Source: an uncultured Myxococcales bacterium
GTDB lineage: Bacteria; Myxococcota_A; Polyangia; Polyangiales; Polyangiaceae
Direction: 5' to 3'
Assembly (NCBI GenBank): GCA_937872925.1
Contig: CALMUT010000316.1
Location: 1 to 64,000 of the forward strand
Length of the DNA: 64,000 bases
Shown: positions 4,645 to 24,273 of the stretch, piece by piece
Layout of the letters: each line of letters starts with the position of its first letter
Numbering within the stretch: the first letter of the stretch is position 1
The notes under the pieces: model-generated
Told to the model about the DNA's origin: nothing
What the model saw: only the letters and a program-made list of their open reading frames with translations
Databases searched by the model: none
Translations under genes and position numbers: made by a program

Positions 4645-5766
4645 TCAGCGCACCACGACGGTGTCGCAGCCGAGCAGGATGTCGAGCTTGCCCGTGCCGA
4701 AGCCCGTGCAGCTCTTGGGGCAGATCATGATGCGCGTCGGATTGGTGGGGTCGTCGTAGTACCAGCCGTCATTGACCTGGTTGCAATCCGCGGCGCTCTT
4801 GACCCAACCCAGAAGACGCTTCTGGCCGTTCGGATCGGTGAACTCGACGTTGATCTTTCCAATCACGGCGCTCCCGCCGTCCTCCGGCGTCGGGATCGGG
4901 TAGTCACACGCCAGGGGCGCCGTGGCTACCGCCAGCAATGCGGCCTGCAGCTCCGCCGCTGCATTAGTGCTGGTGTCGCTGACGATGAGCGCTTCGCGGG
5001 TGCCGCCTGCTTTGGCGACGTTGTTCAGATTCCACAGCGAGCCAATGCCGATGACGAAGGTAAACACCCGCGGCGTGCCGCTCAGCGCTGCCGTCGCCAA
5101 GTCGGCAAGACCCTGCGTGGATTGCGGCTGGCACTCGCTCGGATAGCCATCCGTCGCCAGCACGACGATGGTCGTGCGCTCGGGATGCGCCGTGGCCCAG
5201 GTCTTTGCGTACTGCAGCGCGCCTTCTAGCGCTGGGCCTGTCGGGGTGAAGCTTTGCGGTCCATGTTTGCTGAGGGACGCCTGCATCGCCGCCTGCGCGC
5301 CGGGCAGCGCCGTGATCGGTACGTCGGGGGTTGCGTACTGTGCAACGTTACATGCGGCAGCGCCGGTGCCGAGGCCGAAGTACTGGATGCCGACGCCAAT
5401 GCCGCTCGCCGCCGGCGACGCAACAAAGTCCGAAATTGCGCCGGTGATTGCCGACCACAGCGTCTTGCCGTCCGGGAGCTTGTTGTTCATCGACGTCGAC
5501 TGGTCGAGCATGATGTACAGGTCTACCGGCGCTGGCTTTGCGGCGTAGGAGTCTGCAGCGCACACATCCGCATCGCCAAGGCCGCCGCCACCGGTACCCG
5601 AGAACGCTCCAATCCCACCGTCCGTGCCGACGCTGCCGCCTTTGGCGCCAGTTCCGCCGTTGCCGCCCAGCGCCACTTGGTTGCCGTCGTCGGCGGAGTC
5701 GCCGCAAGCGGCCAGCGCGAGACCAGCGCCGAGCACGCACAGCAAGGCACAGCTACGAAACGTCAT
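4645..5766 (-). CDS. von Willebrand factor A domain lipoprotein (second of a tandem pair)
   Basis: A 373-residue lipoprotein with signal peptide and lipobox (L-A-L-A-A-C), then a Gly-rich linker and a vWA domain at about residues 80-275. The metal-ion-dependent adhesion site is intact (D-Q-S-T-S within LYIMLDQSTSM). The C-terminal segment (WYYDDPTNPTRIMICPKSC) recurs in the upstream paralogue. The ATG at 5766 overlaps the end of that paralogue by 4 bp (ATGA), so the two are translationally coupled. vWA domains bind protein ligands through Mg2+; in myxobacteria such lipoproteins are abundant but mostly uncharacterised. Confidence 0.87.
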   Translation of the reverse strand: MTFRSCALLCVLGAGLALAACGDSADDGNQVALGGNGGTGAKGGSVGTDGGIGAFSGTGGGGLGDADVCAADSYAAKPAPVDLYIMLDQSTSMNNKLPDGKTLWSAITGAISDFVASPAASGIGVGIQYFGLGTGAAACNVAQYATPDVPITALPGAQAAMQASLSKHGPQSFTPTGPALEGALQYAKTWATAHPERTTIVVLATDGYPSECQPQSTQGLADLATAALSGTPRVFTFVIGIGSLWNLNNVAKAGGTREALIVSDTSTNAAAELQAALLAVATAPLACDYPIPTPEDGGSAVIGKINVEFTDPNGQKRLLGWVKSAADCNQVNDGWYYDDPTNPTRIMICPKSCTGFGTGKLDILLGCDTVVVR

Positions 5767-6881
5767 GATGGCGGCGTCGACTTGCAGCCCAAGATCAGAT
5801 CGATGCGACCACTGGTGTCTTGCTTGACGGAGTTGCATGCGTCGGGGCAGAGCAAGATGCGCGTCGGGTTGATGGGGTCGTCGTAGTACCAGCCCCAGGG
5901 CACACACGCCGCCAAGTTGTCGACCTTGTACACCGGCTGCTTGCCGCCAGAGCTTGGCGTGAACTCCACGTTCACCTTGTCCGGGTCGAGCGTGCTGCCG
6001 TTGTCTGGCTTGGGGATCTCGAACTCGCAGGCCAGCGCGCTACCGGTGATCGCTTGCAGTGCCGCGATGAACGCTTGCGTGCCGCCTGTGGCGTTGAACG
6101 CTTTGCTCGTGCCGCCCGCCTGCGCGATGGCGTCGAGCAAGCCGAAGTCCGCCCCCTGCATGCCCATGGTGTAGGTGAGGATCGACGGCGTGCCGTTGAA
6201 GGCCGCGGCGGCGATCCCAGTCAGCGTTGACGTTCCGAGATTGCAGCGAGTGGGCAGACCGTCCGTGACCAGCAGCCCGACGACCTTTTCGCCGGGGTTC
6301 TGCGTCGCGTATTGAGTCGTGAACTTCGTGAGCCCAAGCAACGCGCCTTGAGTGGGCGTGTTGCCGTTCGGGTTGATGCTCGCCAGCCAGCTCTGCACCT
6401 GGGGCGCGGTCGTGGGCACCAACCCCATGGGGATCGCCGGCGTGTCGTAGACGGAGCCGTTGCACGGTCCATCCCCCGACCAACTCTGCAGTGCGATCTT
6501 CGTTGCCACCAAACTCTGGTCGCCGGCGAAGGCGTTGAGGGCGCTCACAGCCTGCGACCACTTGGGGCTGCCGAAGTTGGTCATGCTCGCGCTCTTGTCG
6601 AGCAGGATGTACATCGACAGCGGGATCAGCTCGGCTTGTTTGGTCTCGCCCACGCAGGCGCTATCGGCCGTGAGCGCGCCGTCACCGCTGCCGCCGGCGT
6701 CGATCAAGATCGTGCCGCCGCCGTCCCCGGCGCCGCTACCGGCCCCGTTGCCCCCGCTGCCGATGGGACGCTCAAAAGCCAAATCTTCTTCGCCCGCATC
6801 CGCCGAGCATCCCGCCAGCCGGATCGCCAGCAGCGAGAGCGAGAAGATCGACAGGCGGACCCCAAGTCTCCGAAAGCGCAT
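5763..6881 (-). CDS. von Willebrand factor A domain lipoprotein (first of a tandem pair)
   Basis: A 372-residue lipoprotein starting at ATG 6881, with signal peptide ending I-R-L-A-G-C. A short linker precedes a vWA domain whose MIDAS motif reads D-K-S-A-S (within YILLDKSASM). The rest, including the region around NVEFTPSSGGKQPVYK and the C-terminal WYYDDPINPTRILLCPDAC, parallels the downstream gene closely, so the pair arose by tandem duplication. The two genes overlap by 4 bp and form an operon. The first vWA motif and the Cys-containing tail are both intact, so neither copy looks decayed. The ligand is unknown. Confidence 0.87.
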   Translation of the reverse strand: MRFRRLGVRLSIFSLSLLAIRLAGCSADAGEEDLAFERPIGSGGNGAGSGAGDGGGTILIDAGGSGDGALTADSACVGETKQAELIPLSMYILLDKSASMTNFGSPKWSQAVSALNAFAGDQSLVATKIALQSWSGDGPCNGSVYDTPAIPMGLVPTTAPQVQSWLASINPNGNTPTQGALLGLTKFTTQYATQNPGEKVVGLLVTDGLPTRCNLGTSTLTGIAAAAFNGTPSILTYTMGMQGADFGLLDAIAQAGGTSKAFNATGGTQAFIAALQAITGSALACEFEIPKPDNGSTLDPDKVNVEFTPSSGGKQPVYKVDNLAACVPWGWYYDDPINPTRILLCPDACNSVKQDTSGRIDLILGCKSTPPS

Positions 6882-7069: not shown

Positions 7070-7792
7070 ATGTTTCGCAAGGTTCTCGGTTGCCTCATCC
7101 CAGCGGCATTGTGTCTGAGCTGCTCCGCCGACGATGCGGGCGTTGCCAACAACAATCCGGCCACGGGCGGCGCGTCTTCGGGTGGGAGCGCTGGATCCAG
7201 CAGCGGAGGTGCGAGCGGTAGCGGCGGTGCGGGCGGTGGCGTCAGCGGTTCCGCAGGTACTGGAGGCGGCATCGCCTTCGACGGTAGCGCGCAGGTTCCG
7301 GTGCGTTCTCTGGTCGCGCTCGAAAGCATTAGTTTTCACGAGCGCACCGGCGGCACCGCGCCTACCGCCTACACCTTCTTGGTCAATGGTCCGGAGCTCA
7401 CCGTGCGCCTGACGGATCCGATGACCGACACCAGCCACGACATTCCGGGCGCCACCAGCGAATTCTACGATGTCTACTATTCGAATGAAGACGGTAGCTT
7501 CAACATCGACGGCAGCTACTTGACCATTTCCGGTGTCTTCGCCCAGGCGCTACCCGCGGGCGGCGGCCTGAACCTGGCGGAAATCGGTTTGAACTTTTCC
7601 GACAAAACAGTGGAGTACGGGAACTACGTTGCGAGCTTCGTGGCGCTCGGCGACAACGCCGTGCCTGCCAACGTGGGCAACTGCATCGACGGTGATCTGC
7701 AGACCCACACCACCATGGGCAACACCGTTGGCGCTACGGAGCGCCTACGCTTGACCTTGGGTTTCAACTCGACGTCCGGTCCGCCGAAGTAG
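7070..7792 (+). CDS. Hypothetical Gly-linker lipoprotein
   Basis: A 240-residue protein with a clear lipoprotein signal (L-C-L-S-C at about residues 15-19) and a 45-residue linker of the G-A-S-S-G-G-S type. It then has a roughly 165-residue beta-rich domain with no recognised family. The domain has only one Cys (in NCIDGDLQTHTT) and no obvious metal or catalytic motif. It is divergent from the vWA operon (188 bp between starts) and convergent with the selenoprotein gene. It is probably a surface or periplasmic protein of this lineage. The call is confident as a gene, not as to function. Confidence 0.8.
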   Translation: MFRKVLGCLIPAALCLSCSADDAGVANNNPATGGASSGGSAGSSSGGASGSGGAGGGVSGSAGTGGGIAFDGSAQVPVRSLVALESISFHERTGGTAPTAYTFLVNGPELTVRLTDPMTDTSHDIPGATSEFYDVYYSNEDGSFNIDGSYLTISGVFAQALPAGGGLNLAEIGLNFSDKTVEYGNYVASFVALGDNAVPANVGNCIDGDLQTHTTMGNTVGATERLRLTLGFNSTSGPPK

Positions 7793-7877: not shown

Positions 7878-8765
7878 TCACACTTCGTCAGGGATCTCGC
7901 CGGCATAGAGCCTCGGCAGCAGCCACGGTTTGCGAGCGAGCAGCTGCGCAATGGGTGGATGCACGTCGCTGCCTTTTCGGGCCTGGGCTGGGGACTCGGG
8001 CCACACGAAGGGCAGCTCGACGTAGCTGCCGGGTGTCTCGGCGCGGTCCAGCATTTCCAACAGCGATTGTAGTACCAAGCGCTGGCCGTCTGCATCTCCA
8101 GGCCGGCCTAGAGGGCGTGACATGGGATACGCGATCCCCGCGAGCCGAGGCACTCCGACTGCGCGCGTGAAGTCGGGAATCATCGATAGCGACACGGACG
8201 GAATGCCTTGCGCTTCGATCACCCGCTGCACCAGTCCCACGGACCGGCAGCAATAGGGTCAAACAGGCACCAGCGCTGCCGCGTCCACACCCCGCTGCTT
8301 CATCTCGCGCGCGATGGCAGGCGCGGTCTCCTGTTCCAGTACGTAAGGCTGCAACTGATACCCCATGATCGAGTAGTGGGTGTCAGCTGCCTGGCCGACG
8401 ACTCCGGCGACGGCAAGTTCTGCGAGGCGGCGCATGGGGAGCACGACGTCGAGGTCCTGCTGTCCAAATCGCCGGTCAATGTGTAGATGATGGAGGCTGA
8501 CGTCGCCTTCAGTCGCGCCTACGGGAATGGTCCGATACGTAGGATCCCCCCACCACGGATTCTTGCGCTCGCCCTCTTCGTCAAAGGGCTCGTCATCACC
8601 GCACACCACGCCTGCCGTCGTGACCAAGGCAACCGTGCATCCGGCGAGTGGCTTCGTCATTGCTGCCCAAGGAATGGGGCGCTCATTGCCCGCCTCACGG
8701 GCGACCCAAGCCTTGATGATCTGGCGCGTGGCAAAATCGAGAAAGCGGTATGAGTCGATGCTCAT
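7878..8765 (-). CDS. GrdB-like (glycine/sarcosine/betaine reductase selenoprotein B family) selenoprotein; in-frame TGA read as selenocysteine
   Basis: Seen: two reading frames that look separate (8768 down to 8259, and 8240 down to 7878) are in the same frame and are joined by a single TGA at 8259-8261. Read through, they give a 295-residue protein with Sec at residue 169 in the motif V-P-V-U-P-Y-C, a U-x-x-C redox motif. The N-terminal half has family hallmarks: IPW near residue 33, VALVTTAGV, PYRTIPV-like TYRTIPVGATEGDVS, HLHIDRR, VVLPMRRLAEL and HYSIMGYQ. The half after the TGA continues with the conserved CRSVGLVQRVIEAQGIPSVS. Known: this family carries Sec at exactly this place. The ATG at 8765 is chosen; TTG at 8768 is the alternative. 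The selenocysteine machinery is not in the window. The substrate is unknown, and members outside glycine reductase complexes are thought to be thiol-redox enzymes. Confidence 0.87.
8224..8252 (-). promoter_or_regulatory. Bacterial SECIS-like hairpin downstream of the recoded TGA
   Basis: On the mRNA strand the bases after the TGA fold into a stem of CTGC then CGGTCC (8250-8241), a tri-loop GTG (8240-8238), and GGACTG (8237-8232). A two-base bulge GT and GCAG (8229-8226) follow. The pairs 8251-8225 and a wobble at 8252-8224 extend the stem at its base. The loop begins 18 bases after the TGA and its first base is G. Loop distance, a G at the loop start and an upper stem within the coding region all fit bacterial SECIS elements recognised by SelB. 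One pair in the upper stem is a G-U wobble. Confidence 0.72.
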
Positions 8766-8775
8766 CAAACTCTTG

Positions 8776-8793
8776 ACCGGTGATTGGTCCGGT
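8776..8793. promoter_or_regulatory. Inverted repeat ACCGG-N8-CCGGT upstream of the selenoprotein gene
   Basis: A perfect 5-bp inverted repeat with an 8-bp spacer lies 11 bp upstream of the selenoprotein start. It could be an operator for that gene or a 5' leader hairpin. Short GC-rich palindromes occur by chance in this DNA, so confidence is low. Confidence 0.22.
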
Positions 8794-9070
8794 GACGCTA
8801 CTGCGGGCAGTTCCTAGCTGCAAGCGCCAGTCTTCCAGCTGGCGACGCTGTGCGCCCTGGGCATCGACATCCAACCCGAGATGCTGGGACTTCTACGCTT
8901 GTCACGATCGCGGCTACGATTCAGAAACAGCCGCGCGCTTCGGATTTGCTCGGACACTTCGGTGGCGAGGAGCCGCCCGCAAGCGGACAGCGAGGTGCTG
9001 GGCGGTGTCGGTTCTGGTATCTTGTGAAGCGTCATGCGCGGGTCATGGCTGGGGTGCAGAAGGAGGCGAC

Positions 9071-10609
9071 GTGGCGAATATCCGGACCTTGTCCGTGCTG
9101 TGCGTGATGCCTGTGGTGATCGCGGCCTGCGGAAACGATGACGGAGGAGCAGGTGTCGGGGGTGCCGCTGGCACTGTGACGACAGGCGGCGCGGGCGGTA
9201 CCGCGACGACAGGCGGCGCGGGCGGTACTGCAGCGACAGGCGGAACGGGAGGTACCACGACCACCGGCGGCACGGGAGGTACCACGACCACCGGCGGCAC
9301 GGGCGGCACTGCAGCGACAGGCGGCGCAGGCGGCACGAGCGGCACGAGCCACTACGTTCGTTCCGGTGCAACGGGAGCCGGAGACGGTAGCGATTGGACA
9401 AATGCCTGCACAGATTTTACAGGGTCCTGCGCCATCGGGTCGCTCGTGCGTGGCGACACCTACTACGTGGCTGACGGGGCGTATGCGAGCCGAAACTTCA
9501 ACACGGCCGCCAATGGCAATCTAGTCATCACGATCAAGAAGGCGACCGTGGCCGACCATGGCACGGCAACCGGCTGGGTGAATACCTACGGCGATGGGCA
9601 GGCCATCTTCAATTCCGTTGTGACGTTCTCGACCGACGACTGGGTCATGGATGGGTCTGCGCGAGATGAATCGAATCCTCCAGTCTCCTGGTTCAATACG
9701 ACTTCGTATGGATTCAAAATTTCTAACAATGCGAACGCCGCACAGGTGCAGCTGAAGTTCGGTGCGGCGCTGGATAATTTCACCCTGCGACACGTGTGGT
9801 TAGAAGGGCGCGCAGGAGGTTTTAGTGGTGCCGAGCGACGTTACTCCATTGACTGTGAAACGGGCGGCACCTCAACCAACCTGCTTTTCTCAAGAAACCT
9901 CAGCACCGACAGCAACCAATGGTATTTTCTCCGTGGCACGGATCACACCACGATTGAATACTGGGCCGGTGATCGTTTGACGGGTGACGGCAACAACCAC
10001 GGCGATGCCATCAACGCGTACTTTACGGCGGAGGATGTCACTATCCGGTGGGGGGTCGCCCGCAATGCGTGCACGACAGGATGCACAGGCATGATTCCCG
10101 TCGCTGACAGCCACGGCACGTCTACACCTCCTCTCGTGAAGTTGTACGGCAACCTCTTCTATGACTATGGGTCAACGGATGGCACGATGGGCTTTTTGGG
10201 CAATCAAGCCAACGGAGGCAACTGCACCAACTGCGTCGTGACGAACAATACGTTTGTCGATGGCGGGGCAGAATTTGCGTCGACCTGGGGGCTGCAGTTC
10301 CCTGATGGCTCCGGGAATATCCACCGCAACAATATTTGGTTTGAGGTGAACTCGCAGATCCCAAACTTTAGTCTCGGGTCCGGGGCCACGAATTCCCACA
10401 ATGCGTTCGGCACGTCCGCAACCAGTACGGGAACGAATGCTCAAGTCAGCATGCCCAGCTCGACCTTCGTGAATTTCGCCGGAAAGAACTTCAAGTTAGC
10501 CTCTGCCACGTCATGCGGCATCGCCCTCCCTGCGCCCTACGACAGGGATATGTTGGGCAAGCTTCGGGGGGCCGACGGCTGCTGGGACCGTGGAGCCTTT
10601 GAGTTCTGA
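9071..10609 (+). CDS. Right-handed parallel beta-helix (pectate-lyase-like) lipoprotein
   Basis: A 512-residue exported protein. The GTG at 9071 is chosen because an AGAAGGAGG ribosome binding site sits just upstream and the first residues form a lipoprotein signal (V-V-I-A-A-C). The open frame back to 8780 is not protein-like. Residues about 30-90 are six copies of a 9-residue TTGGAGGTA-type unit encoded by a 27-bp repeat. The rest is Asn/Gly/Thr-rich with runs such as NNTFVDGGAEF, RNNIWFEVNSQ and NLLFSRNLS that are typical of parallel beta-helix coils. The C-terminus has the GxxRGADGCWDRGAFEF ending of 'choice-of-anchor' or DUF1565-type beta-helix proteins. The coding region is visibly richer in A/T than its neighbours. 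Likely polysaccharide-binding or lyase; no catalytic residues could be assigned. Confidence 0.8.
   Translation: MANIRTLSVLCVMPVVIAACGNDDGGAGVGGAAGTVTTGGAGGTATTGGAGGTAATGGTGGTTTTGGTGGTTTTGGTGGTAATGGAGGTSGTSHYVRSGATGAGDGSDWTNACTDFTGSCAIGSLVRGDTYYVADGAYASRNFNTAANGNLVITIKKATVADHGTATGWVNTYGDGQAIFNSVVTFSTDDWVMDGSARDESNPPVSWFNTTSYGFKISNNANAAQVQLKFGAALDNFTLRHVWLEGRAGGFSGAERRYSIDCETGGTSTNLLFSRNLSTDSNQWYFLRGTDHTTIEYWAGDRLTGDGNNHGDAINAYFTAEDVTIRWGVARNACTTGCTGMIPVADSHGTSTPPLVKLYGNLFYDYGSTDGTMGFLGNQANGGNCTNCVVTNNTFVDGGAEFASTWGLQFPDGSGNIHRNNIWFEVNSQIPNFSLGSGATNSHNAFGTSATSTGTNAQVSMPSSTFVNFAGKNFKLASATSCGIALPAPYDRDMLGKLRGADGCWDRGAFEF
9179..9337 (+). repeat. 27-bp coding tandem repeat (about six copies)
   Basis: Units begin at 9179, 9206, 9233, 9260, 9287 and 9314, each encoding a nine-residue Thr/Gly-rich linker unit. 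Copies differ at a few bases (for example GGTACC versus GGCACT). The repeat forms the flexible tether between the lipid anchor and the beta-helix domain and could change copy number by slippage without shifting the frame. Confidence 0.85.
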
Positions 10610-23052: not shown

Positions 23053-24273
23053 TTGAGTTATGTCACGAAGGTGACTCCGCCCGCGCCTTCCACCGTGCTG
23101 CTCGCGACGGCGATCGCGTACGGCGCCGTCGTCGTCATTGGCGCTGCGCTGCGCAGCCGTACCTATGCGATTTTTCGTGCGGTCACTTTAGGCATCTACG
23201 GACTGATCTTCTGGGGCGTGCTTTCCCGCTGGCTTGCGACGCCGTTGTGGCCCTTGGTGCTCTACCTGCACAGCACCGTGTATCTGCATTCGCTTCTCCT
23301 CGTGCGACCGCGCATGCGCTCGCTGGTCTATCGCGGGTTGGTCAGCATTCCACAGTCCCTCTGGGCGGCGTCGATTCTGCTTTCGCTGCCTTTCGCGCTG
23401 GTCGCGGCCTTTGGATTCGCGCTGCCTGGGTTTTGGCTGCCTGCGCTGCTGTCGCTGATCGGCGTGCTGCAGAGCTTGCGCACCCGGGGCAGCCAGGTGG
23501 ACATCGTGGTTGGGGACGGAGACGCGGGAGAGCTGGCGCGACGCGCGCATGGCAGCGAGCGCACGCCGCGGCCGCTGTCGTTCTTTCAAATCACGGATCC
23601 GCATTTGGGGCCGTTCATGAGCGTGTCGCGGCTGCGCGCCGTCAGCGAGGCGGCCGTTGCCGAAAATCCGGATTTGGTGCTGTTGACCGGCGACTACCTG
23701 ACCATGGAGTCCCACGGTGACGTGGCGCATCTGCGCGATGCGTTGATGCCCCTGGCAGTGCTCTCTGGGCGCACCTTTGCGTGTTTCGGCAATCATGACC
23801 ATGAGGCACCGGAGACCGTGCGTGGTGCTCTGCGTGCGGCGGGCGTGCAGCTCTTGGTCGACGACGCCACAGTTGTCGAAACGGCGGCCGGCAAAGTGCA
23901 GATCGTCGGCATGGACTACCACTACCGTGAGCGTCGCGCGCGCATGGACAAGGTGCTCGCGGCGCATCCGCGCCTGCCCGGAGCATTGCGTCTGGTGCTC
24001 TTGCATCACCCCGGTGCGTTTCGGCATTTGCCCGATGGAGACGCGGACCTGGTGCTGTCGGGACACACCCATGGCGGCCAGGTGGGCTTTCTGAGTCTGG
24101 GTCTGCACCTGACGCTATTGCGCCTGTTGATGAACAGCCCGGACCACGGCTTCTGGGCGCAAGGGAAGAACCGCCTGTACGTGCATCGGGGGACGGGGCA
24201 CTACGGCTTTCCGTTGCGCATTGGTGTTCCCGCAGAACAGAGCGTGGTGCGGGTACACCGCGTGGCGGCGTGA
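23053..24273 (+). CDS. Membrane-anchored metallophosphoesterase
   Basis: A 406-residue protein. The first roughly 150 residues contain four to five hydrophobic helices. The C-terminal part is a calcineurin-like phosphoesterase of the YkuE/YaeI type with all metal motifs: I-T-D-P-H-L-G, G-D-Y-L-T, CFGNHDHE, LLHHPGAF and LSGHTHGGQVG. Relatives hydrolyse the pyrophosphate of UDP-2,3-diacylglucosamine or other phosphodiesters. The membrane location suggests a lipid-type substrate, which is inference. The start is a TTG at 23053; GTG 23071 is an alternative. It stands alone, divergent from the lipoprotein gene to its left. Confidence 0.9.
   Translation: MSYVTKVTPPAPSTVLLATAIAYGAVVVIGAALRSRTYAIFRAVTLGIYGLIFWGVLSRWLATPLWPLVLYLHSTVYLHSLLLVRPRMRSLVYRGLVSIPQSLWAASILLSLPFALVAAFGFALPGFWLPALLSLIGVLQSLRTRGSQVDIVVGDGDAGELARRAHGSERTPRPLSFFQITDPHLGPFMSVSRLRAVSEAAVAENPDLVLLTGDYLTMESHGDVAHLRDALMPLAVLSGRTFACFGNHDHEAPETVRGALRAAGVQLLVDDATVVETAAGKVQIVGMDYHYRERRARMDKVLAAHPRLPGALRLVLLHHPGAFRHLPDGDADLVLSGHTHGGQVGFLSLGLHLTLLRLLMNSPDHGFWAQGKNRLYVHRGTGHYGFPLRIGVPAEQSVVRVHRVAA

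Follow-up and report, generated by a model that had tools for sequence, protein, structure and literature searches.

The window analysed here is a stretch of 64,000 nucleotides from a contig of an uncultured Myxococcales bacterium (GCA_937872925.1, CALMUT010000316.1), and in it an open-frame listing gives two adjacent pieces of 169 and 120 codons. It was originally predicted that these pieces form a single selenoprotein gene of the GrdB-like family, which standard gene calling would split, and which stands outside any glycine reductase operon. The locus therefore raises two questions: whether the TGA between the pieces is read as selenocysteine (Sec) and, if it is, what kind of enzyme the joined protein may be.

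One frame across an internal TGA

We found that the two pieces join on the minus strand, which the original prediction had left unstated, through one in-frame TGA into a protein of 295 residues (Table 1). The frame starts at an ATG (8763-8765), with an alternative TTG at 8766-8768, and terminates at a TGA at 7878-7880; the plus-strand reading of the same interval was rejected, as several stops break its frame. Sec169 lies in the motif V-P-V-U-P-Y-C-C, so that the expected U-P-Y-C motif is present. The profile of PrdB, the B subunit of D-proline reductase (TIGR04483), matches the joined protein over residues 33-254, straight through the TGA, with an E-value of 3.7e-38, compared to 1.9e-21 and 5.9e-8 for the single halves. 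At 24271 (+) and 53396 (+) in the window, one TGA likewise connects two frames that look coding; here the probable explanation is adjacent genes that share a frame.

Table 1. Features of the locus in the window and Sec genes in the same assembly (G000)
Feature	Location	Strand	Record	Evidence or remark
Downstream neighbour, convergent	7070..7792	+	Window	Lipoprotein-like; no Pfam match
Selenoprotein CDS, 295 residues and TGA stop	7878..8765	-	Window	Translation with TGA as Sec; PrdB/GRDB profile matches; full-length orthologues
Apical SECIS stem-loop, 7 bp, predicted; GUG tri-loop at 8238-8240	8231..8247	-	Window	Covariation; fold and z-score
Cys172 codon, U-P-Y-C motif, likely resolving partner	8250..8252	-	Window	Nearly invariant in the orphan family; invariant in the wider set including genuine PrdB
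In-frame TGA, Sec169	8259..8261	-	Window	TGA in 42/42 loci spanning the residue; TGC in two alphaproteobacterial homologues
Upstream neighbour, divergent open frame	8780..10609	+	Window	Lipoprotein-like, Gly/Thr/Ala-rich linker; no Pfam match
selA	C218:28897-30243		G000	SelA 487 bits
selB	C218:39555-40616		G000	SelB above cut-off
tRNA-Sec (selC)	C218:42607-42703		G000	72 bits
selD	C59:14914-15831		G000	SelD 299 bits; one in-frame TGA

Homologues of this free-standing (orphan) gene were found in 55 of 284 Myxococcota genomes, with up to seven matches per genome, and the best reading is that the orphan family is widespread in this phylum. Among the listed matches, each one reaching across residue 169 carries an in-frame TGA, and the three that contain no stop at all align solely to other regions of the protein. 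When loci covering the residue were read directly, the TGA fell exactly at residue 169 in all 42, and free-standing homologues in two Alphaproteobacteria carry a natural TGC codon there. Furthermore, dN/dS after the TGA was about 0.07, 0.06 and 0.16 for three pairs of relatives, and again 0.16 in a fourth comparison, with a 77% identical remnant, demonstrating that purifying selection acts on the sequence downstream of the TGA.

This remnant (L062, near 9225-9536, the same as L031:8001-8312 and L052:1501-1812) retains residues 192-295 only. The half with the Sec codon is lost, what is left continues the frame of an unrelated sequence upstream, and the genome, from the same bacterial family, still has selA and tRNA-Sec. 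The gene is patchy, being absent from another genome of the same genus that we examined, and a search of phages gave a single weak match, over 44% of the query.

A covarying hairpin and the Sec machinery

Immediately 3' of the TGA is a predicted hairpin, CCGGUCC-GUG-GGACUGG, whose fold reaches over 8219-8261 and whose GUG loop begins exactly 18 bases past the TGA. The 43-mer folds with a minimum free energy of -22.0 kcal/mol (z = -3.2 compared to dinucleotide shuffles, 3/200 of which were as good). Because the coding sequence itself constrains the bases, we added a synonymous-codon null, in which all seven stem pairs of the window gene recurred in 1.45% of recodings of the same peptide (P-value = 0.015); under this null the overall free energy was not unusual for three related loci (L030, L032 and L060).

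The strong part of the SECIS evidence is comparative. We counted 35 distinct sequences rather than 42, since some loci are the same record held in two genome collections. Across these sequences 98.0% of stem cells are paired, and 13 are doubly changed (GC to CG and UA to GC are examples), compared to 1.5 in shuffles, none of 500 being as high; sliding the register of the stem brings pairing down to 9-64%. The loop in related loci is always GUG, GUC or GUU, and in five sequences a G-G closing pair gives a five-base loop that still has G first. The structure is thus conserved with a G within the first two loop positions, which is the form expected of a bacterial SECIS element. The two cysteine homologues retain just 4 and 3 of the 7 stem pairs and have no SECIS-like hairpin. 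An Rfam search of the hairpin returned chance-level matches only, with no family; bacterial SECIS elements are too variable in sequence for such a miss to weigh heavily.

All four genes for Sec synthesis and insertion are present in the window's own assembly, a 9.39 Mb draft of 377 contigs that is 95% complete, with selA, selB and selC lying within 14 kb of each other (Table 1). SelD of this genome is probably also a selenoprotein, given the in-frame TGA in its gene. More broadly, selA was found in 11 of 21 genomes of the same family and in 10/10 further tested genomes with the TGA form of the gene.

Taken together, the aligned Sec in all spanning homologues, the covarying SECIS, the natural cysteine homologues and the complete set of sel genes agree with the original prediction, whose account of the joined frames, the motif, the G-leading tri-loop with its spacing, and the splitting of the gene is borne out; the homologues also keep a conserved region after the TGA. 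Judged from its sequence, 7878-8765 is a genuine selenoprotein gene read through an internal stop codon. Genes of this kind in Myxococcota genomes will be split by gene callers.

Family placement, missing partners and alternative readings

The protein passes the Pfam GRDB model (PF07355), its 32.3 bits exceeding the gathering score of 22, and the orphan-family members in our alignment match GRDB as well (35/35). Its best curated match is PrdB, at 131.3 bits, which does not reach the equivalog cut-off of 300; other members of the orphan family score 87 to 156 bits, compared to 423, 310 and 454 bits for genuine PrdBs of Terrisporobacter, Peptoclostridium and a large Myxococcota genome. The GrdB model (TIGR01917) gives 40.5 bits against a cut-off of 602, through its C-terminal half alone, which leaves the protein outside GrdB. 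The GrdB-like assignment originally made therefore holds at the level of the GRDB domain, with one refinement: by these profile scores the gene is nearer to PrdB of D-proline reductase than to GrdB, and belongs to neither equivalog family. The TGA does fall where the family has Sec, in the same alignment column as the Sec of PrdB.

The motif and the phylogeny also separate the two groups. Orphan proteins have U-P-x-C, whereas genuine PrdBs have U/C-G-T-C-H-R. In a maximum-likelihood tree the PrdA-adjacent PrdBs form one clade (100/100); the window gene falls outside it and groups (99/90) with genes of two further families in the same class. D97, D104, P110, U169, E184, R207, G220, Q228 and L236 are invariant both in the orphan alignment and in the wider one with PrdB, while H93 and C172 vary little or not at all; this points to a frame held in common with genuine PrdB.

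Within the same family, genomes of 12-15 Mb contain apparent cysteine homologues; these were rejected as cysteine versions of the orphan gene, since each is a true PrdB beside, or in one frame with, PrdA. In G514 (L084:5137-7665, minus strand) PrdA and a Cys-type PrdB (GGCGTCHRS) share one 843-codon open frame, apparently a fusion. In G525 (L085:6461-8855, minus strand) PrdA and a PrdB with the same motif are two adjacent genes, and no selA match was found in that genome. Both genomes, of 13-15 Mb, belong to the same bacterial family as the window.

We found PrdA in none of 11 Myxococcota genomes with the orphan gene, using a query that finds PrdA in 4/4 Firmicutes control records. The GrdE-type subunit family (PF09338) was found in 0/19 genomes with the orphan gene by a search that lacked its own positive control, so that the PrdA query carries the weight. 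GrdA was present in one of the 19, which is not the genome of the window. In the window's assembly none of PrdA, GrdE and GrdA was found, consistent with the predicted position outside a glycine reductase operon; being a draft, the assembly could have missed a partner. One 4.2 Mb Myxococcota genome (G149) has seven matches to the orphan family, and in it a GrdA with an in-frame TGA (C42:702-1106) adjoins a weak GrdB-like match (C42:25-618).

The neighbourhood gave no pointer to a substrate: among 68 neighbouring open frames at 13 relatives' loci no Pfam family recurred in more than two loci, and the window, the two nearest orthologues and the remnant have no common genes besides the selenoprotein gene itself. 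The true start of the upstream neighbour is probably nearer 9070 (within 8780-9074). Two further lipoprotein-like open frames of similar sequence, adjacent and partly overlapping, lie at 4648-6881 on the minus strand of the window, and the one at 4648-5907 contains a von Willebrand factor A domain.

We assign a probability of roughly 0.85 to the reading that the locus encodes a recoded, free-standing selenoprotein of the GRDB/PrdB superfamily, which would act alone or with an unrelated partner and use Sec169 and Cys172 for redox chemistry on some other substrate. If the TGA were instead a real stop, whether it separates two genes or entered a cysteine gene by nonsense mutation or by a sequencing error, the listing of the halves as separate open frames would be explained, but the same TGA recurs in all spanning homologues, the SECIS covaries, the Sec machinery is present, and both purifying selection and the PrdB profile match continue on both sides of the TGA; we consider this extremely improbable. 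It is also very improbable that the protein is the B subunit of a reductase of D-proline or a similar amino acid, with a PrdA or GrdE partner missed through assembly gaps or divergence. PrdB is indeed the best curated match, and true Cys-type PrdA-PrdB pairs exist in the same bacterial family, but the partner searches described above, a score less than half the cut-off that genuine PrdBs exceed, UPYC in place of UGTC and the position outside the PrdB clade leave this reading largely refuted already.

A different possibility is that the protein functions much as a thioredoxin or peroxiredoxin does, as a general oxidoreductase of thiol-disulfide or peroxide type, instead of reducing a small organic substrate; Sec169 and Cys172 would then cycle between selenol/thiol and selenenylsulfide on protein disulfides or peroxides. 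Thiol redox proteins have the same layout, with UxxC at the start of a helix; the orphan family stands alone, in many copies, in organisms without Stickland partners; and ocean surveys class the UxxC 'PrdB' family with thiol-dependent redox proteins. However, H93, D97, D104, R207 and Q228, which are far from the motif and common to PrdB, suggest a small-molecule pocket, and a thioredoxin-fold chain is absent from the listed structural matches, itself weak evidence. This reading is plausible, if on the doubtful side.

Proposed chemistry and comparison with known systems

An AlphaFold2 model of the protein (mean pLDDT 92.4, pTM 0.92) is an alpha/beta domain with U169 between strand 162-166 and helix 172-185. 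A sequence search of solved structures gave no clear relative, the sole profile match, 38 positions long, being to a de novo designed protein, and Foldseek gave no match with E < 0.001. The best VIA-align scores (Z up to 7.0) were to generic Rossmann-like domains and are uninformative on function.

For the free-standing selenoprotein that we favour, the complete set of sel genes suggests that SelB carrying Sec-tRNA would bind the hairpin just 3' of the UGA and so insert Sec at residue 169. In a single Rossmann-like domain, Sec169 would sit at the start of the helix after strand 162-166, and Cys172 a turn further along. The selenolate of Sec169 could then attack a small substrate, Cys172 would resolve the intermediate to give a selenenylsulfide, and a cellular dithiol (thioredoxin or another donor) would re-reduce it. 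It has been previously proposed for D-proline reductase that the pyruvoyl group of the partner holds the substrate while Sec attacks and a thiol releases the product, steps that are themselves hypothetical (PMC10298544). As no pyruvoyl-bearing PrdA or GrdE was found, Schiff-base binding of an amino acid, as in D-proline and glycine reductases, is not expected here; since this route appears closed, the protein probably works on a different substrate, either by itself or together with an unrelated partner. Its most likely role would be that of a stand-alone selenol/thiol reductase. We further propose, tentatively and at somewhat less than even odds, that the orphan UPxC branch is a distinct family of single-subunit selenoenzymes, with as many as seven copies in a Myxococcota genome, that carries out Sec-dependent reduction without the pyruvoyl partner of D-proline reductase and has been misnamed 'proline reductase' in surveys.

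UxxC 'PrdB' selenoproteins are already known as abundant in ocean metagenomes, and the window gene is a further member of this kind, from an orphan family that is often multi-copy in Myxococcota. In the Sargasso Sea the UxxC 'PrdB' family was the third most abundant selenoprotein family, with 42 genes (PMC1088965), and Global Ocean Sampling yielded 235 sequences, with 110 Cys homologues, under pfam07355 (PMC2398784). Both the D-proline reductase and the GrdB families appear in a 2026 review, in which Myxococcota are not mentioned (PMC13188914). In fluoroacetate degraders, cleavage of the carbon-fluorine bond has been connected with GrdB relatives, and a GrdE-like partner is encoded as well (PMC10838667). 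Our literature search found no paper that gives a function to the free-standing form.

Compared to PrdB, the window protein has the same domain, the same Sec alignment column, a Cys three residues later and the D97/D104/R207/Q228 frame. It differs in its score (131 bits against 300), in UPYC for UGTC, in its separate clade and in having no detected PrdA; longer N and C termini are also among the differences. With GrdB, GrdF and GrdH of the glycine, sarcosine and betaine reductases (PF07355, TIGR01917/01918) it shares the C-terminal half of the models, Sec site included, but it lacks the N-terminal half (~210 residues), reaches 40 to 46 bits where the cut-offs range from 65 to 800, and has no GrdA or GrdE detected in its genome. 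Alphaproteobacterial proteins of Roseomonas and Haematobacter, named 'Glycine/sarcosine/betaine reductase selenoprotein B family protein', are likewise free-standing and of similar length, with CPxC for UPxC; unlike the window protein, to which they are 28-29% identical, they have a natural cysteine and no SECIS-like hairpin.

The oceanic 'Proline reductase PrdB' family (PMC1088965, PMC2398784) is alike in being Pfam07355, UxxC and Sec-rich, and is abundant in surface ocean water. A close relative in a gammaproteobacterial MAG (L030, TMED69) has the motif VUPDCC, and from the shared Pfam07355 domain, the UxxC motif and this relative we infer that the window gene probably belongs to the same subfamily as the survey sequences. 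The surveys name the family proline reductase, whereas the window gene does not appear to be one. One of the most abundant selenoprotein families of ocean metagenomes carries the name of an anaerobic amino-acid reductase. The Sec-retaining loci without PrdA or GrdE (with GrdA in one exception among the tested genomes), together with the cysteine branch in Alphaproteobacteria, make this name testable, and the orphan family is a good target for learning the role of an abundant selenium enzyme.
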